This document shows, piece by piece, positions 1,480 to 27,031 of a stretch of 27,031 bases of DNA. Every line of letters begins with the position of its first letter. The first letter of the stretch is position 1. The notes below the pieces were generated by a model. The model searched no databases. It saw nothing but the letters and a program-made list of their open reading frames with translations, and was not told where the DNA came from. Source of the DNA: a virus; IMG/VR virus record IMGVR_UViG_3300021090_000093, positions 1 to 27,031 of that record; one strand, given 5' to 3'. A program made the position numbers and the translations under genes.

Positions 1480-1848
1480 ATGAAAAGATGTCCTACTTGT
1501 AAAGAAGAAAAAGATGATAGGGATTTTTATTTCTTTAAAGGAAAGCCTCATGGACATTGTAAAAAATGCCATAGAATTCATTCACGAAAATCTTCTCTTA
1601 AACGAGAATATGGTTTAACTTTAGAAGCTTATGACGATTTATTAAAAGGTCAAGGGTATGTGTGTGCAATTTGTAAACAGCCAGGCCATACAAATAACCG
1701 TCAAAAGTATCCTCTGTATGTAGACCATAATCATGAAACAAATGAAGTTCGAGCATTGCTATGCTCAATGTGTAATACATTAGTAGGGTGGTTAGAAAAT
1801 AATCCACAACTGGTTGCTCAATGTGAACAGTATATTTCTGACCATTAA
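1480..1848 (+). CDS. HNH endonuclease, endonuclease VII type (free-standing)
   Basis: This 122-residue protein carries the zinc and HNH pattern of the recombination endonuclease VII family. It has an N-terminal CPTC with a later CKKC, then CAIC at about residues 62-65, and the catalytic-type segment VDHNHETNEVRALLC followed by MCN at about 85-102. A ribosome site, AGGAG, lies at 1468-1472 ahead of the ATG. Such genes are usually homing nucleases that nick DNA near intergenic insertion sites. Here it sits between the capsid gene and a non-coding folded region, which supports a mobile origin. A second member of the same family lies at 19534-19947. Because T4 endonuclease VII resolves branched DNA, a packaging role is possible but less likely for such a short protein. 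Confidence 0.85.
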   Translation: MKRCPTCKEEKDDRDFYFFKGKPHGHCKKCHRIHSRKSSLKREYGLTLEAYDDLLKGQGYVCAICKQPGHTNNRQKYPLYVDHNHETNEVRALLCSMCNTLVGWLENNPQLVAQCEQYISDH

Positions 1849-2423: not shown

Positions 2424-2654
2424 ATGTCTGAAGAGAAGCCAAAAGCCCTCGTTACAGTGAGTCGCCCAACAGCACAAGAAGAGACATGCCAAGTCACAAT
2501 GTATATTGACGAACTGAGTCAAGAAGCTATCTACAACGCTGTTACACTCGCGGGAGAAGCATTATGTCAAAGAATTCTTGATTGTAATAAGAAATTTGCT
2601 CATATTAAAGATCCGATCCCTGCTTTTATGTCCCCTAAAGGTGGCTCAGCTTAA
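2424..2654 (+). CDS. Unknown small phage protein, 76 residues
   Basis: I do not recognise this small, mildly acidic protein. It begins MSEEKPKALVTVSRP and has a predicted helical centre (ELSQEAIYNAVTLAGEALCQRIL) and two Cys residues that form no obvious metal site. A clear ribosome site (AGGAGAAC) precedes the ATG. Its TAA shares one base with the ATG of the next gene (TAATG), so the two are probably translated together and may act together in the virion. Confidence 0.72.
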   Translation: MSEEKPKALVTVSRPTAQEETCQVTMYIDELSQEAIYNAVTLAGEALCQRILDCNKKFAHIKDPIPAFMSPKGGSA

Positions 2655-3025
2655 TGTCTTTTACGCAGTTTCAGATTAAGAAGGGAAGCAGGGGACTCAA
2701 TGTAGGTCCACTCATGGGTATTACTCAGACCCCTGTGAACCTTACTGCAAGCGGGGATTCGACGCTAGTCGCTGCGGTGGCGGGGCGTATTATTCGTGTA
2801 CACAAGCTCATGTTAGTGGGAGCCGCTGCGAGCAATGTGCGTCTCTGGTCTGGACCTTCTTCAGAAGCAGATTCAATTACAGGACAAATGAATTTTCCTG
2901 CTGGTTGGGTTATGGCGCTGGACTTAGATGATTTTACAATGGTAACGGGACCTGGTAAAGCGTTAGTCTGGGCGTCTTCCGAAGCTATTCAAACTGGTGG
3001 ATTGCTTGTCTATTCTGTGGAGTAG
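2654..3025 (+). CDS. Virion-associated beta-sandwich protein (decoration-like)
   Basis: This 123-residue protein is predicted to be nearly all beta. The segments STLVAAVAGRIIRVHKLML, NVRLWSGPSSEADSITG, GWVMALDLDDF and GKALVWASSEAIQTGGLLVY follow the order seen in a widespread phage family with the pattern V.A..G..I.V..L.L, then a sugar-binding-like turn, then L....A...GG.L.Y. Such proteins are usually minor structural or decoration proteins and lack a precise assigned role. Base composition is somewhat more GC-rich than its neighbours (runs such as gctgcggtggcggggcg), hinting at separate acquisition. The ATG overlaps the stop of the upstream gene. Confidence 0.65.
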   Translation: MSFTQFQIKKGSRGLNVGPLMGITQTPVNLTASGDSTLVAAVAGRIIRVHKLMLVGAAASNVRLWSGPSSEADSITGQMNFPAGWVMALDLDDFTMVTGPGKALVWASSEAIQTGGLLVYSVE

Positions 3026-3028
3026 TGT

Positions 3029-3184
3029 ATGAAAAGCTTTATTCAGCACCTTGTTAATTATAAACATCCCAAAGTCTATTCCCCACAGGTTCCTAAAGTA
3101 ATTATCAAATATCGCAACTCTAAACCTTCGTGGAAACGAGTGGTCAACGATGTCAAATTTCTTCTTTTCAGTCGGTTCGCTTAG
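3029..3184 (+). CDS. Small basic protein, 51 residues
   Basis: A short frame begins at ATG 3029, four bases after the previous stop, with GGAG at 3020-3023 as a well-placed ribosome site. It encodes a basic peptide (MKSFIQHLVNYKHPKV...SKPSWKRVV) of pI clearly above 9, and its last 35 bases overlap the start of the fibre-like gene in another frame. I cannot assign a function. The good ribosome site and fit between genes favour it being translated, possibly to couple translation into the next gene, which has a weak site of its own. Confidence 0.5.
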   Translation: MKSFIQHLVNYKHPKVYSPQVPKVIIKYRNSKPSWKRVVNDVKFLLFSRFA

Positions 3185-16632: not shown

Positions 16633-16931
16633 TCAGTATACCTCACATGGAACCATTCCCAGACTGAGGGGTGGTCTTTGTAGCCAATTTCCCATTTCTC
16701 GTCTATAGCAAAGAGTGCTCGACGGCAATCAACAATGACCTGATTGGCTTGGTTCGGTGTCACATGAGGTACTCGAAAGACAAAACCAGCACCATCCCCG
16801 TCCCATTCTGTAATCCCAAGTTCCAACTGTTTACCAGCAAGAATCGAAGATACGATCAATAAACCATCTAAGGTCTTTTCAAACATCTTAACAGGACTGG
16901 TACGCGAAGTCCAAAGAATTTCAGAATCCAT
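16629..16931 (-). CDS. Unknown acidic protein, 100 residues
   Basis: The product shows a mixed alpha/beta pattern: FEKTLDGLLIVSSILAGK, LELGITEWDGDGAGFVFRVP, QANQVIVDCRRALFAIDEKW. There is no catalytic motif that I know. The acidic turn EWDGDGAG could bind metal. Its start shares a base with the HNH stop (TAATG). It may be an accessory to the nearby nuclease or a small DNA mimic, but this is only a guess from charge and context. Confidence 0.62.
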   Translation of the reverse strand: MDSEILWTSRTSPVKMFEKTLDGLLIVSSILAGKQLELGITEWDGDGAGFVFRVPHVTPNQANQVIVDCRRALFAIDEKWEIGYKDHPSVWEWFHVRYTE

Positions 16932-17371
16932 TATCGCCTTCTTCCATACACCATTGTAGCCATCTTCATGCGCTTGCGGAAAATTGCTAGTGCTTCTGGG
17001 GCTTCCGCATCAAGGACTTCTAAGAGTCTGGTAAACTCGTTATGCGTAAACTCTCCTTTGACTTGATTACACTCTCTACACACACACTGTAAGTTTGACA
17101 GCACATTCTGCTCAGACTTTCTTGCAACCCTTGCTTTGGGTACAGCATGGTCCAAAGAGACATTTTCTACAGTTAAAACGACAGGACAATAAGGACAAGC
17201 CGTTCCAAGAGAAGCCTCAGTCAATGCTAGAATCTCAAGCCGTTCTGGTACCTCTTCTCCCGTCTTCTTCAGTGTAGACATGAAGTTCTGCACTCTATAT
17301 TTCAGAGGATTCTCTTTACGCCACTCTGAAAGGGTGCGAAGCTTCTTGATGACTTTTTTCTTAGACCTCAT
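16931..17371 (-). CDS. HNH endonuclease (McrA-like)
   Basis: I use ATG 17371, which shares ATGA with the stop of the Cas4-like gene; an in-frame TTG at 17380 is less likely. The 146-residue protein has a basic N-terminus (KKKVIKKLR) and then the HNH core: CPYC (about residues 59-62), SLDHAVPKA, NLQCVCRECN. The Cys pairs likely hold a structural zinc, and His in LDH is the expected catalytic residue. It is a different HNH group from the endonuclease-VII-type genes here. Because it is tightly coupled to the Cas4-like nuclease, it may serve in DNA processing rather than homing; I infer this from the overlap. Confidence 0.85.
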   Translation of the reverse strand: MRSKKKVIKKLRTLSEWRKENPLKYRVQNFMSTLKKTGEEVPERLEILALTEASLGTACPYCPVVLTVENVSLDHAVPKARVARKSEQNVLSNLQCVCRECNQVKGEFTHNEFTRLLEVLDAEAPEALAIFRKRMKMATMVYGRRR

Positions 17372-18132
17372 ACATCCCAATCTAATTGAACAAGGTTATC
17401 TTCGAGCACTTCTGGATCACCCTCACAATAATGCTGTCGGAAAGTGCAATATTTACACCAGCCCTTATATTCTACTGTATCAGGTAAAAAAGGTTCTGGC
17501 AAGTGCTTATTTTTATATTGTTGCCTTAAATCCTCCCACCAGGCCGTAACTTCTGCACGAAGTTCTTCTGTCACTTCAATCCGATAAGACTTCATGGCAG
17601 CATCATCTTTTGAGAAGTAGACCAGCCGCAGTTCATCTACCCTATACTTCTTATTCTTCTCCCAATAGGTGATGGCTTGGTAAATATTGTGTTTACTGGC
17701 TTGTTTGGTCTTCAAAATCATCGTCCAAAAAGCGCCAGTATTCTTACTCTTCAGTTCGTATAGGATGTTCTTAGTCCCATCCTTACTTTTGAGGATAAAG
17801 TCAAACGCCCCGACCACATCATCTGGGTTATCTCCGAATCCAGAGGATACAAATTGCTCTGCTGCAATAAGTCGTCCAGACTTCTCAACAACCGCTCGTA
17901 TAGCATTGTGGATAAGATCCCCTATCCAAAACTTCCGCATCGTCTTGGCATCATGTTCATCTTCTTTAGCATTAAGACGATTCAGAATAGTTGCTCGACC
18001 ACAATATCCTGCATTAGAAATAGAGAACCAACCACGCTTCTTACGTCTCGCACGACGAGGTGCTGCGGCTTTCTCAATTTCTATGTCAAGCAATTCCTCT
18101 AACTCGTCCCAATACTTTTCGGCAAGAGCCAT
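17368..18132 (-). CDS. Cas4-like PD-(D/E)XK nuclease with Fe-S cysteines
   Basis: The 254-residue protein carries the RecB/Cas4 nuclease core: a His in IGDLIHNAI (about residue 75), Asp111 in GAFDFIL, Glu126-x-Lys128 in YELKSK, and a Gln in NIYQAITYW (about residue 152). One Cys lies near the start (GYCGRA, residue 44) and three near the end (CKYCTFRQHYC, residues 226, 229 and 236), the usual iron-sulphur cluster set. It probably trims or degrades DNA ends during replication, recombination or host DNA breakdown. No CRISPR genes lie nearby. The upstream stop (TAA) is directly followed by its ATG. Confidence 0.88.
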   Translation of the reverse strand: MALAEKYWDELEELLDIEIEKAAAPRRARRKKRGWFSISNAGYCGRATILNRLNAKEDEHDAKTMRKFWIGDLIHNAIRAVVEKSGRLIAAEQFVSSGFGDNPDDVVGAFDFILKSKDGTKNILYELKSKNTGAFWTMILKTKQASKHNIYQAITYWEKNKKYRVDELRLVYFSKDDAAMKSYRIEVTEELRAEVTAWWEDLRQQYKNKHLPEPFLPDTVEYKGWCKYCTFRQHYCEGDPEVLEDNLVQLDWDV

Positions 18133-19013: not shown

Positions 19014-19541
19014 TTACTCCACAGGTTCAACAACCGCGTCAGCCAACTTCTTGACATCTTCTAGATTAAGCGGTTCAGAAGATCCTGTTTGAATATAATT
19101 AAAGAAATGGTCTGCATAAGCCACAACCTGGTTTACTCGTTCCAGAAGACTTGGATTCTTCTTTGAGTTGGGGTTGTTGAATGCTGCGTTCACAACTTCC
19201 CCAGCCACCTGAAGGGCCACGCGCCTATCAATTTGCTGATAGTCATTCTTCTGTGTGCCTGAAGGTACCACAGAAGACTCGACTACAGTTCCAGCCACAG
19301 GCGGGATTGCGGCAGACACTTCAATGGATTGAAGATCGAAGTATCGTAGATCTCTCGGTGATTGAGATGCTTCAAACTCAACGTAAGAACCAACTTTCAA
19401 CCCCTCAACGAGTTTATTTGAGAATCCCAACCCATACTTCTTACCAGCAATCTTTGCAGAAAACATTGTCCAAGGTTTGCCAGCCTTGGACGTTCCAGAC
19501 TTTGCTTCTAATCCTTCATACGTTCCTAACTGTTTACTCAC
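19014..19541 (-). CDS. Single-stranded DNA-binding protein candidate (OB-fold)
   Basis: The front half of this 175-residue protein has the strand pattern of an OB-fold: LGTYEGLEAKSGTSKAGKPW, MFSAKIAGKKYGLGF, GLKVGSYVEFEASQSPRDLR, YFDLQSIEV. After a Pro/Val/Ser-rich linker, the back half is helical (VALQVAGEVVNAAFN, LLERVNQVVAYADHFFNYIQ) and could form oligomers. It lies just after the polymerase gene, where many phages have their SSB. The start GTG 19541 has AAAGGGG upstream, located in the end of the HNH gene. It lacks the short acidic tip of many SSBs. Alternative: recombination mediator or another OB-fold protein. Confidence 0.6.
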   Translation of the reverse strand: MSKQLGTYEGLEAKSGTSKAGKPWTMFSAKIAGKKYGLGFSNKLVEGLKVGSYVEFEASQSPRDLRYFDLQSIEVSAAIPPVAGTVVESSVVPSGTQKNDYQQIDRRVALQVAGEVVNAAFNNPNSKKNPSLLERVNQVVAYADHFFNYIQTGSSEPLNLEDVKKLADAVVEPVE

Positions 19542-19947
19542 TAGAACCCCTTTCGATTAAATATTTTACTGCTCGTTTTAAGATTTGAATAGAATCTCCT
19601 AACAATCCTATTCCCCCGTTACATTTATTACAAAGCAACCCTCGAACGTTTCCTGATTTATGATTGTGGTCTATGTGTAAAGTATAATGCTGCCCCTTCA
19701 ATAATTGTCCTGAAGTTTGGCAAATTACGCAAGGCCCCTTTTGCTTTTTTACTAAACTTTCATAAGTTTCCGAAGTTATGCCGTAATTAACAGTAAGATG
19801 TCGATCTCTGCGCTTTTTGAGAATTCTTTTTTTATTCTTTTTATACCAAAGCACAGAATATGCGGCATGACATGGTTTACAACGACCACCCTTACTTTTA
19901 GTTTTAATAAAAAGAACCCCACACTTAACGCAAATTCGCTTCTCCAT
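19534..19947 (-). CDS. HNH endonuclease, endonuclease VII type (second copy)
   Basis: From ATG 19947 the 137-residue product has CVKCG near its start, CKPCH, CVIC, and the signature HIDHNHKSGNVRGLLCNKCN. It is clearly related to the 1480-1848 product (VDHNHETNEVRALLC). A longer start, GTG 19962, overlaps the polymerase stop (GTGA) and cannot be excluded. It lies between the DNA polymerase and the SSB-like gene, a common place for homing nucleases, and its 3' end carries the ribosome site of the SSB-like gene, so it is well fitted into the operon. A free-standing homing enzyme is the likeliest role. Confidence 0.82.
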   Translation of the reverse strand: MEKRICVKCGVLFIKTKSKGGRCKPCHAAYSVLWYKKNKKRILKKRRDRHLTVNYGITSETYESLVKKQKGPCVICQTSGQLLKGQHYTLHIDHNHKSGNVRGLLCNKCNGGIGLLGDSIQILKRAVKYLIERGSSE

Positions 19948-19958
19948 AAGTGAGTATC

Positions 19959-21617
19959 TCACACAACCTTTTCCATGTCAAACAAATTCTTTCCTATTTT
20001 CATTTCAAAACCATAATTCATTTTTAATTCGACACCAAAGTATTCATGAAACCACAGAGGCAAATTCTCATAGACACCATAAACAACACGCCTAACTTGT
20101 TCCAAGTCACCTGGATACACATCAAAAACCACCTCATCATGAATTTCGGCAACCACGTGAGACTTTAATCTCAATTGGTGGCAAACGTGATTACTTTTAA
20201 TCAGAATAATTTTATTAAAATCAGTACCTAAACCTTGAATAGGAGAATTATAGCTTTGGTTGTAATTATTTGTATGCCTTCTCCTTTTTGTATAAGGGTT
20301 GGTCACATAGCCTTTATTCCAACAGCTTTCTTCCATAATTTTAAAGTATTCTTGGAATTCTGGGTACCGTGTGACAGTCAAATCCTTTAAAAACTCATCA
20401 GCTTGCTCTTTCGTAAATCCATAATCATTGACTAATGTGTATCCTTTTCCTCCGAAGATCACAGAGAAATTAGCATTTTTTGATCGTACTCTTTCTTTCA
20501 GAAATGGAAACCTCGCCAAGGTTTCAGCATGAATATCCTTCCCACTCTCTAAATCATCCGCAAACTGATGTTTTCCTGTAAGAAACCAACACATTTCAGC
20601 CATTAATCTGGCCTCAAGTTGAGACCAATCGACACCCAGAAGAATTCCACCAGGAAACTTGCTCACGACACACCTTTTAAAATCCGAAGTCTCCTTTCGT
20701 GGCATGACTTGAATAAACTTCTCAGAAAGTCTCCCCGTGACTGTACTAGTCAGTTTATAATCAGGATAATATTTCCCATCAATAAGGGTCGCAAGAAACC
20801 CTTCCACATAGGTTCCTAATTGCTTATTCACTTCTCGAAGTTCTACGACAAGCTTCGCTACGGGGTGTTCGATCTTTTCTAACACTCCTGTAGTTGTCTG
20901 GTATTGCCCTGAAGCCGTCTTAGGCAATTTTACTTTTTGTTTATGAAGCCATTCCCCAACCTGCACTGGAGAGTCCCAATTAAAGTCCTCTGTAAGGTCT
21001 GGTAATTGTTGAAGAATTTGTGCTTTTTGTTCTCTTAATTGCTCTCCTTTTTCCTCCAAAAACTCTGTGTCAATTTGTAGCCCTTTTGTTTCGACATCCG
21101 CTAGCTCCTTGATGAAGTCCCCCATGAGATTAACGAGAGGTTGAAGCCCTCGCTGTGCTATTTGGGGAACTTGTTTGTCGAATATATGGCGAGTAGCACG
21201 TAAATCGTGACAATTGTAAAGAGTAAGAGTAGGAATATCCTCATAATAATAAGGTTCCTTTTTAGCTTTAAAATTTACCAGCTTCTTATAATTAGGATGA
21301 GAATACCCATACAACTTTGCTAAATCTTCTAAGTGATAGGACGACAGCTCTTCGTGGAGCAAATGTGCTTGGACTTGAACATCACGTATAGGCCCTTCCC
21401 AACTACAATTTCGTTGCTGTTTAAGACAACGTAAGTCGTATTTGGCATTAGCTCCGACAAGTATATCTTCACTTCCCCAACAGAATAGTGGCTCAATATC
21501 ATACAAAAAATCCCTTCCGTCCCACCATCCTATAAAGAGATTCTTCCAGTCTGGGTGCTTTTGCTGGAATTCAAACCCCGGAGATCCGTAAGTTTCTGCG
21601 TCGAAGGTAACTATCAT
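19959..21617 (-). CDS. Family A DNA polymerase with 3'-5' exonuclease
   Basis: From ATG 21617, which shares ATGA with the upstream micro-gene, the product has 552 residues. The N-terminal proofreading exonuclease has FDAET (Asp6, Glu8), NAKYDL (Asp61) and YNCHD (Tyr134, Asp138). The polymerase part has motif A DWSQLEAR (Asp330), motif B K380-NANFSVIFGG, and motif C HDE (493-495). The residue aligned with E. coli Pol I Phe762 is Phe384, not the Tyr found in T7. There is no 5'-3' exonuclease domain. It is shorter than T7 gp5 (704 residues), as if lacking the thioredoxin loop, so processivity may depend on other factors. It is the replicative polymerase by context. Confidence 0.95.
   Translation of the reverse strand: MIVTFDAETYGSPGFEFQQKHPDWKNLFIGWWDGRDFLYDIEPLFCWGSEDILVGANAKYDLRCLKQQRNCSWEGPIRDVQVQAHLLHEELSSYHLEDLAKLYGYSHPNYKKLVNFKAKKEPYYYEDIPTLTLYNCHDLRATRHIFDKQVPQIAQRGLQPLVNLMGDFIKELADVETKGLQIDTEFLEEKGEQLREQKAQILQQLPDLTEDFNWDSPVQVGEWLHKQKVKLPKTASGQYQTTTGVLEKIEHPVAKLVVELREVNKQLGTYVEGFLATLIDGKYYPDYKLTSTVTGRLSEKFIQVMPRKETSDFKRCVVSKFPGGILLGVDWSQLEARLMAEMCWFLTGKHQFADDLESGKDIHAETLARFPFLKERVRSKNANFSVIFGGKGYTLVNDYGFTKEQADEFLKDLTVTRYPEFQEYFKIMEESCWNKGYVTNPYTKRRRHTNNYNQSYNSPIQGLGTDFNKIILIKSNHVCHQLRLKSHVVAEIHDEVVFDVYPGDLEQVRRVVYGVYENLPLWFHEYFGVELKMNYGFEMKIGKNLFDMEKVV
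19971..19992 (+). repeat. 22-base exact repeat, copy 1 (in polymerase 3' end)
   Basis: These 22 bases (starting ttccatgtcaaacaaa on the plus strand) recur exactly at 25946-25967. This copy encodes KNLFDME near the polymerase C-terminus, immediately before the second HNH gene. See the second copy for context. Confidence 0.85.
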
Positions 21618-24838: not shown

Positions 24839-24941
24839 ATTCATCTCCTTCTATATGATGGTCACAAACAGGCAGTAAATAGGTGGAATTGCTCCCAGGC
24901 AATTCAGACCAGTAATTATTGTGATGGCATTGGCACATCAT
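24828..24941 (-). CDS. Tiny Cys/His protein, 37 residues
   Basis: A short frame starts at ATG 24941, within the end of the zinc-finger gene upstream, and ends 11 bases into the endolysin gene. The product starts MMCQCHHNNYWSELPG and has CDHHIEGDE near its end, a Cys/His set that can bind zinc. GGAGG lies 11 bases upstream of the ATG, somewhat far. I keep it because it fills the gap and its Cys/His pattern is unlikely to be random, but the call is modest. Function unknown. Confidence 0.42.
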   Translation of the reverse strand: MMCQCHHNNYWSELPGSNSTYLLPVCDHHIEGDEYVF

Positions 24942-25092
24942 CGTCGATAAATCCTCCATCACACCAACTGCATTGTTGCTGTGTTTGAAGCGGAATTGGG
25001 CATCCTATTGAGCACGTTCCATTACACTGAGGATCATGTCCAAATTCTAGCACTTCTATCCAACCTTGTCCATCACAATAATGACACATCAT
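24916..25092 (-). CDS. DnaJ-type CxxCxGxG zinc-finger protein, 58 residues
   Basis: The frame starts at ATG 25092 sharing ATGA with the stop of the HNH-ligase fusion. The product begins MMCHYCDGQGWIEV and contains CNGTCSIGC and CSWCDGGF. The two CxxCDG(Q/G)G repeats match the zinc-finger repeats of DnaJ (CxxCxGxG), here without a J domain. Such short free-standing copies occur in phages. A chaperone or nucleic acid role is possible. The overlap with the fusion gene suggests that the two are expressed together. Confidence 0.68.
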   Translation of the reverse strand: MMCHYCDGQGWIEVLEFGHDPQCNGTCSIGCPIPLQTQQQCSWCDGGFIDDDVPMPSQ

Positions 25093-25901
25093 ACTTGACT
25101 CTTTGGTTTTTCATCGTCTTTAATTGTTTTCTTAAATCCAATCTTCGCAGCCGTATGCCATACCACAATTCCTTCGGGGTCCATAAAACCTGGTGCAGCG
25201 CGGCTGCCAGACTCTTTCAATTCTCCCAAGATATTTTGGATAACTTTTGAATCAAAATCCCCTCGGTACAACGTGGGAACAACCCCCACACAGCTTGGTC
25301 GCTCAGCAAATGTCCAACGCTCGACATTAAACAAAGAGAAGTGTTTCTCTACTAATCCATACCGACGCTGAATCCCCTCTCCCCACCATTCCCCTTTATG
25401 AATCCCTGGTCCTAAATGTTGTAATTCTCTGAAATGCTCATTCGCCCATTTTGCAAAGCCAAAATTATCTTCTTCAATACTTAACCACCTATTTTTACTC
25501 CCAGCCCATACGTCATGATCTTCATCAACCCAAACAAGTGCGTTTGTCCCATCAATTTTTTCAGTAATAATAACTTCTCTAGACAAACGGGCAATCTTAG
25601 GGTGCGGGAAAAAGGGTGGACATTTTGCTTCTTGTTCTTTCAATCTTCCAACTGTGCGTTTAGCATGGCAGTTATGGCAAACTACGTCGCATTTTTTTAC
25701 TTCTTCTTCCAATCTCTGTAGGCTCACATCCCAACGGGACCCTATGCAGAACAACTTTTCTCCTTTAACGTGATCGAAAGACAACACGATATCAGGACCC
25801 CATAATTTGCAATCCATGCAACCAGACGCAATTTTTATAGAAGCTAGAAAATGCTTTCTTTTCTCGTACATTTCCTGTTTCCATTGTAAAGAAAATCCCA
25901 T
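25089..25901 (-). CDS. HNH endonuclease domain fused to RNA ligase
   Basis: One 270-residue open frame joins two domains. Residues 1-90 form an HNH nuclease: basic helix KRKHFLASIKIASGC, CMDC (28-31), SFDHVKGEK (Asp43-His44), and CDVVCHNCHAKRT (75-79). Residues of about 95-265 form an RNA ligase: motif I EKIDGTN (Lys115), HKGEWWGEGIQRRYG (168-182), motif IV PEGIVVWH (242-249), motif V FKKTIK. All ligase nucleotide-binding motifs appear intact. Both families are common in phages, but each is normally a separate protein, so the fusion is unusual. It could cut and rejoin nucleic acid in one protein, or be a homing HNH merged with a ligase gene. GGGAGG precedes ATG 25901. Confidence 0.85.
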   Translation of the reverse strand: MGFSLQWKQEMYEKRKHFLASIKIASGCMDCKLWGPDIVLSFDHVKGEKLFCIGSRWDVSLQRLEEEVKKCDVVCHNCHAKRTVGRLKEQEAKCPPFFPHPKIARLSREVIITEKIDGTNALVWVDEDHDVWAGSKNRWLSIEEDNFGFAKWANEHFRELQHLGPGIHKGEWWGEGIQRRYGLVEKHFSLFNVERWTFAERPSCVGVVPTLYRGDFDSKVIQNILGELKESGSRAAPGFMDPEGIVVWHTAAKIGFKKTIKDDEKPKSQV

Positions 25902-25945
25902 TAGAGCCGCCTCCCACTTGTTAGACTATTCTCCCACCACTTTTA

Positions 25946-25967
25946 TTCCATGTCAAACAAATTCTTT
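25946..25967 (+). repeat. 22-base exact repeat, copy 2 (upstream of the HNH-ligase gene)
   Basis: An exact match to 19971-19992. In this place it overlaps the stop of a 50-residue gene. In the third minus-strand frame it reads EIISKNLFDME between two stops, close to the polymerase C-terminus EMKIGKNLFDMEKVV, so it looks like a fossil of the polymerase 3' end. The next gene on the same strand encodes an HNH domain, as does the gene after copy 1. Confidence 0.85.
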
Positions 25968-26661: not shown

Positions 26662-27031
26662 TTATGCTAGGATTTTTAAAAGCTGTTTTAGAGTGGGATA
26701 AAACTGGATTGCCCCGGTTGCCATTGCACTGATTTCGCGTCTAGTAAACTTAAACCACTGTTCTTTTGGATGATTTTGACAACCTACCGCAACATAATTA
26801 TCTGAAATGGTTATATGCCAGGGTAAATTAGATATACAAATAACTGGTTTTGTAGCGATAGCCTCGCCAAACACCTGCGCCTTGCCAGACACCTGCGCCT
26901 CGCCAGACACCTGCGCCTCGCCAGACACCTGCGCCTTGCCAGACACCTGCGCCTCGCCAGACACCTGCGCCTCGCCAGACACCTGCGCCTTGCCACACAC
27001 CTGCGCCTTGCCAGACACCTGCGCCTCGCCA
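26662..27031 (-). CDS. Hexapeptide-repeat (left-handed beta-helix) protein, partial
   Basis: The frame is open to the right edge, so the true start lies outside. At least nine hexapeptides of the form (S/C)G(K/E)AQV are followed by FGEAIATKPV and a C-terminal domain (WHITISDNYVAVGCQNHPKE through FTRREISAM). Hexapeptide repeats fold as a left-handed beta-helix. The C-terminal part, with ITI.DN...VGC..H....W..F...EI, recurs in phage proteins with such helices, whose function is unclear. Repeat units are nearly identical at the DNA level, so copy number probably varies between relatives. Confidence 0.75.
   Translation of the reverse strand, partial: GEAQVSGKAQVCGKAQVSGEAQVSGEAQVSGKAQVSGEAQVSGEAQVSGKAQVFGEAIATKPVICISNLPWHITISDNYVAVGCQNHPKEQWFKFTRREISAMATGAIQFYPTLKQLLKILA
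26861..27031 (+). repeat. 18-base tandem repeat array
   Basis: About nine and a half copies of an 18-base unit (gcctcgccagacacctgc on the plus strand, with T replacing C at one position in the Lys-coding copies) run off the right edge. Lys (K) and Glu (E) copies alternate as K-E-E over three units, so there is also a 54-base higher-order period. The array encodes the hexapeptides of the beta-helix protein and is clearly more GC-rich than the flanks. Confidence 0.88.

Follow-up and report, generated by a model that had tools for sequence, protein, structure and literature searches.

Fusions of an N-terminal HNH domain to an Rnl2 RNA ligase are mentioned by Iyer et al. (2021; PMC7824862), in the part of that paper that cites Burroughs and Aravind (2016), and HNH-RNA ligase fusions have been interpreted as a weapon linked to a repair tool. 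Endonuclease genes of this kind are also known from insertions into phage genes. Mobile DNA in T4-like phages has been reviewed (PMC2988022), including free-standing homing endonucleases, some of whose insertions split critical gene regions, as with mobE in nrdA of Aeh1 and mobA in gene 60, and a phage methylase gene into which an HNH was inserted out of frame has been reported (Arsenault et al. 2025; PMC11855218).

Here, we propose, with a probability of roughly three in four, that a fused HNH-ligase frame in a viral record is a two-gene merger, in which a homing-type HNH gene would have been inserted at the 5' end of an RNA ligase gene and an indel would have set the two frames in register. 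The window that we analysed is an entire IMG/VR viral record of 27,031 bases. Its fused frame encodes an N-terminal HNH domain and a C-terminal Rnl2-family ligase in one polypeptide, matching in domain types and in their order the fusions mentioned by Iyer et al. (2021), and it is a further member of this already reported domain pair. The initial annotation of the locus, which knew the two families as separate phage proteins and not as a pair, was mistaken on this point. No model in Pfam, NCBIfam or PADLOC covers the HNH-ligase fusion.

The sequence as it stands does contain the fusion (Table 1). An intact HNH domain leads into an RNA ligase in one frame of 270 amino acids, as first described, and alignments of 28 HNH proteins and 26 ligases bear out the two domains, their order and the catalytic residues assigned to them (His44 and Lys115). 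From the ATGA overlap between the ligase stop and the next gene, the 3' end of the ligase gene appears intact. A clear ribosome-binding site, as read from the sequence, precedes the HNH part only. We also considered an intein or an intron-borne endonuclease and rejected it, since the protein begins with the HNH domain, which has a start and a ribosome-binding site of its own, and no ligase sequence lies before it.

Table 1. Features of the fused gene and its surroundings in the 27,031-base window.
Feature	Position	Strand	Basis or remark
Fused frame of 270 codons, HNH endonuclease domain followed by RNA ligase domain	25089..25901	-	ORF reading; ATG at 25901, TGA at 25091-25089, no internal stops
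HNH domain, residues 1-88 (Cys28, Cys31, His44, Cys75, Asn77, Cys78, His79)	25638..25901	-	phrog_2255 match, invariant residues, predicted fold
Short linker, residues 89-94	25620..25637	-	low-confidence model stretch covers residues 86-92
Small Rnl2-like RNA ligase (nucleotidyltransferase) domain, residues 95-270	25092..25619	-	PF09414, phrog_548, T4 Rnl2 profile and fold
Off-frame ATG where solo ligases start	25621..25623	-	possible vestige of the ligase's own start
Shine-Dalgarno-like GGGAGG before the fused frame	25910..25915	-	read from sequence
Promoter-like TTGACA-17-GAGAAT, TG ahead of the second hexamer	25928..25956	-	consensus match, alone not significant
22-nt exact direct repeat AAAGAATTTGTTTGACATGGAA, upstream of the fused gene	25946..25967	-	copy of the DNA polymerase gene 3' end
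Other copy of the 22-nt repeat	19971-19992		polymerase gene 3' end, just before another HNH gene
Small zinc-finger-like ORF, 58 aa, next gene	24916..25092	-	overlaps the ligase stop as ATGA
Further HNH/endonuclease VII type gene	1480-1848	+	
Further HNH/endonuclease VII type gene	16931-17380	-	
Further HNH/endonuclease VII type gene	19534-19962	-	

Residues 8-91 of the fused protein match phage HNH families (phrog_2255, 1.6e-16; phrog_3106, 1.3e-14; phrog_4234, 5e-8), the HNH part having no match with Pfam alone. All 15 residues that are invariant in the 28-sequence HNH alignment are kept, including His44, Asn77, His79 and the four zinc cysteines, giving both the zinc-binding CxxC/CxxC frame and the catalytic His, Asn and His of the beta-beta-alpha-metal motif. 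With its own alignment supplied, the HNH fold was predicted at a pLDDT of 91.5, and its matches in the PDB are weak. The relatives of the domain are short free-standing genes, several of them within tRNA clusters, and the domain match, which is far above chance, points to a short free-standing phage-type HNH. Relatives of the window HNH at L016, L018, L021, L022, L023 and L024 commonly lie in or beside phage tRNA gene clusters. Within the window, no tRNA genes that could link the ligase to tRNA repair were found.

The ligase part is likewise complete. Residues 97-270 match PF09414 RNA_ligase (2.4e-10) and phrog_548 RNA ligase (1.8e-25), a profile search of PDB sequences matches T4 Rnl2 (6e-5), and every residue invariant among the 26 ligases is kept, including the catalytic lysine Lys115. 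Nucleotidyltransferase motifs I, III, IIIa, IV and V are all present (KIDGTN, which holds Lys115, GEWWG, FSLFNV, PEGIVV and FKKT). The ligase model is confident, most blocks lying at 85-96 pLDDT, and its fold matches Naegleria RNA ligase (NgrRnl) and T4 Rnl2. Structure prediction, which the initial annotation had recommended, thus returned two confidently folded domains; the interdomain stretch, residues 86-92, was modelled with low confidence. In the ligase tree the placement of the window is weak. Both the fused and the solo ligases are without the C-terminal domain of T4 Rnl2, and therefore we call the window enzyme Rnl2-like rather than a full Rnl2.

Might the HNH domain simply help so small a ligase to hold its RNA? 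The window ligase aligns with the Rnl2 nucleotidyltransferase domain only and ends about 13 residues after motif V, which would suit an HNH recruited as a nucleic-acid-binding module rather than as a homing enzyme. We consider such a recruitment very improbable, given that solo relatives of the same size do without an HNH part and that the nuclease residues are intact rather than decayed.

We next consider whether the pair is conserved. Our ligase collection began with six close loci and was then extended to 238 loci, comprising 208 distinct ligases. The six closest relatives in the first search are 49-58% identical and all are solo ligases, and in the full collection the window is the only locus (1 of 238) with HNH and ligase in one frame. 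A search for the same domain order among relatives, as the initial annotation had advised, hence yielded no second one-frame example. No match to the fused protein was found among 50,697 phage records at 80% cover. A DNA pattern scan for an HNH end beside ligase motifs gave two viral contigs, neither an open fusion, and the same scan of genome contigs gave no match; these scans require exact motif matches and can overlook cases, as happened with L336. In one side case, L236 of Herpetosiphon geysericola (2471-3026), the ligase gene lies in two overlapping frames, apparently as a frameshifted copy.

This distribution bears directly on the idea of a selected bifunctional enzyme, in which nucleic acid of a rival or of the host is cut by the HNH part and RNA is mended by the ligase, or in which both act jointly to cut and seal one substrate. 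Both domains are complete with all invariant residues kept, a single ribosome-binding site serves the front of the frame, and Iyer et al. (2021; PMC7824862) read the HNH-Rnl2 fusions that they report in this way. The one-frame pair is nevertheless seen in one ligase locus only, is missing from the phage records and from both contig scans, and is joined by a linker predicted with low confidence, and the insertion of an HNH gene into a ligase gene already accounts for the proximity of the two parts. We therefore regard a selected bifunctional enzyme as quite unlikely. The initial annotation had favoured a coordinated break-and-join enzyme, and that preference is not sustained, since no relative keeps the pair in one frame, the linker is poorly modelled and the junction frames (see below) look random. 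Its second suggestion, a homing gene merged with a ligase gene, is the one that the relatives support; they lend no positive support to break-and-join.

What the relatives offer is a series of HNH insertions in ligase genes of other phages. In L026 (IMGVR_UViG_3300048777_000064, 1928-2557), an HNH element interrupts the ligase gene immediately past the motif-I lysine codon. What remains of the old ligase 5' end, the relic MEFLEFPKIARLSRECVITEK, stops after that codon and is followed by the HNH gene and then by a complete ligase, whose ATG overlaps the HNH gene 3' end. Identity to L027, a relative with the empty gene, is 85.7% for the relic, 63.5% for the new 5' end and 87.1% for the remainder; despite its divergence, the new 5' end encodes nearly the same residues as L027. 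L336 (IMGVR_UViG_3300012667_000745, 1458-2060) has the same architecture and the same break after the motif-I lysine. Against its empty relative L320, the relic is 86.0% identical over the shared 57 nt and 87.9% over its whole length, as compared with 68.4% for the new ligase end, 86.7% for the sequence after it and 87-96% for the flanking blocks. In both pairs (L026/L027 and L336/L320) the site is empty in the close relative, as in homing. Together, the L026 and L336 patterns indicate that an HNH element with a recoded ligase start enters between the motif-I lysine codon and the next codon. These two loci are clear cases, from phages, of a homing gene bringing with it a recoded substitute for the start of its target. 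In the literature, our coverage of which is incomplete, we found no account of HNH genes entering RNA ligase genes and supplying a recoded end in place of the old one.

Within the collection, the HNH protein of L026 is closest to that of L336 and the reverse also holds (57-64%), and the next closest (41-55%) are not beside ligases. In a test for duplicated gene ends flanking HNH genes of the window's HNH family, only these two loci stand out. The window HNH is not close to theirs, and because the HNH tree has few columns and a long window branch, it is too poorly determined to decide whether all three descend from one shared insertion. HNH sequences are also found at the ends of ligase genes. 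In L260 (IMGVR_UViG_3300042005_000011, 2434-3060), an HNH gene lies at the ligase 3' end, its tail being a relic of the ligase C-terminus (ENDEIHKWEV), and the ligase has a diverged replacement 3' end. In the near-identical phages L186 (5926-6051, minus strand) and L247 (2373-2519), a decayed HNH remnant, the 30-residue C-terminal end, sits between terminase and ligase and abuts the latter; a one-base difference in an A-run places it in frame in L186, with TAA between, and out of frame in L247. The initial annotation had looked to relatives for loss of the fusion with a stop between separate genes: the fusion is indeed absent from all of them, and a stop stands in frame between the two parts in L186. 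Selfish HNH genes thus appear to land repeatedly at the ends of, or inside, the ligase gene.

The element in L026 and L336 invites a more elaborate idea, namely that the fused frame is a self-rescuing homing cassette, whose nuclease attacks the catalytic-motif codons of competing phages' RNA ligase genes and is made as one protein, and travels, with a recoded, cut-resistant ligase. If this were true, the gain of the nuclease and the repair of its target would be inseparable. We think it unlikely. For fusions that have been read as a weapon with a repair tool, the relatives offer a simpler origin, in which an HNH gene homes at the most conserved codons of the ligase and rebuilds its target with a replacement end.

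How, then, did the two frames come into register? The junction as given reads CCCTTTTTCCC. The aligned solo ligases start at about window residue 95, mostly with M-x-x-F-x-x-F-P-K-x-x-R-L-S-R or similar, and the off-frame ATG of the window stands at this place, 22 nt from the PK codons, which is one above a multiple of three. An ATG persisting one base out of register is suggestive of a single inserted base, which would explain the merger, and by our own estimate an off-frame ATG would be expected there by chance at about 0.16. The HNH-ligase merger can follow from a one-base slip.

The same ATG, standing at the solo-ligase start position, could instead mean that the C3T5 run contains a one-base error, or has recently undergone a frameshift, and that the true genes overlap out of frame, with the ligase starting at the 25623 ATG. 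Taking one base from the run yields the frame MST(F/L)FPHPKIARLSRE, which resembles the solo start of Caulobacter phage CcrSC, MTTFVAFPKIARLNRE, and the single-base difference between L186 and L247 occurs at a similar junction. However, the shortened run would leave the HNH frame to continue about 40 codons through the ligase before a stop, no clear ribosome-binding site precedes the 25623 ATG, and the chance of finding such an ATG is the appreciable one just given. In addition, short runs are rarely miscalled in short-read assemblies, which counts against an error if this record comes from one. An error or fresh frameshift is, in our view, decidedly unlikely.

Across the window and its relatives, the junction frame offsets are 0 (the window), 1, 1, 0 with a stop, and 2, and the frames in the relatives look random. 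In this sequence, a stop-free, in-frame junction has a probability of about 0.12 per insertion, and at least one is expected in four independent cases with a probability of about 0.4. One fused case in four is unsurprising because of this chance of about 0.12 per insertion. The fusion calls for no functional reason.

In light of these findings, the merger that we favour may be set out as follows. A short free-standing HNH gene of a mobile, homing-type family would have inserted before or into the ligase 5' end, the window HNH arriving by the same process as in the relatives, and a small indel at the overlap would have brought the HNH and ligase frames into register. Both activities would persist in the fused protein: most likely, DNA is still cut or nicked by the HNH part, at a recognition site of its own and in the service of its own spread, and the ligase part still performs ligase-type adenylyl transfer and seals RNA, for instance to repair cleaved tRNA. 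One polypeptide would hold both on account of where the HNH gene landed and not by one reaction feeding the other. Most likely, then, the joint protein arose incidentally from HNH invasion and was not built for cutting and sealing. In support of insertion, an HNH is absent before nearly all other ligases, relics and empty relatives occur elsewhere, and the window holds three further HNH/endonuclease VII genes. Counting against it are the catalytic residues of both domains, all kept, as a functional fusion also predicts, and the other HNH-Rnl2 fusions in the literature. Also against it, a ligase relic was sought upstream of the window HNH and none was found, no empty close relative of the window phage was found among the collected ligase loci, and the window HNH is a distant member of its family.

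The window also encodes a family A polymerase, a DnaB-like helicase, a Cas4-like exonuclease and a thymidylate synthase. Both copies of the 22-nt repeat hold a promoter-like TTGACA-17-GA(T/G)A(C/A)T and precede HNH genes. At the record end (about 26850-27031) lies a tandem array of 18-nt units encoding SGEAQV/SGKAQV, which is probably the reason that the contig breaks there.

If our homing reading is right, empty ligase alleles should be cut at their motif-I codons; the reading also advises caution against inferring a joint function from HNH-ligase fusions.

Among known systems, the solo phrog_548/PF09414 ligases of Caulobacter phage CcrSC and Rhizobium phage RHph_Y1_10 have a 52-62% identical domain of the same length and with the same motifs as that of the window, but are without the HNH domain. 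T4 RNA ligase 2 shares the nucleotidyltransferase fold and motifs, but has an extra C-terminal domain and no HNH. The T4 mob genes (PMC2988022) are likewise short HNH genes between or inside phage genes that overlap their neighbours, from which the L026/L336 element differs in restoring its target with a recoded copy of the 5' end, and the window HNH in having a frame continuous with that of the target gene. The ShiLan methylase gene (Arsenault et al. 2025) is likewise a phage enzyme gene that took in an HNH gene and whose frame stays open across it; there the HNH is out of frame inside the methylase, whereas in the window it is N-terminal and shares the ligase frame. Lastly, as compared with the fusions of Iyer et al. 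(2021), to which we liken it by description only, the window ligase is a minimal form of about 175 amino acids (phrog_548), and the window data favour insertion over a designed pair.
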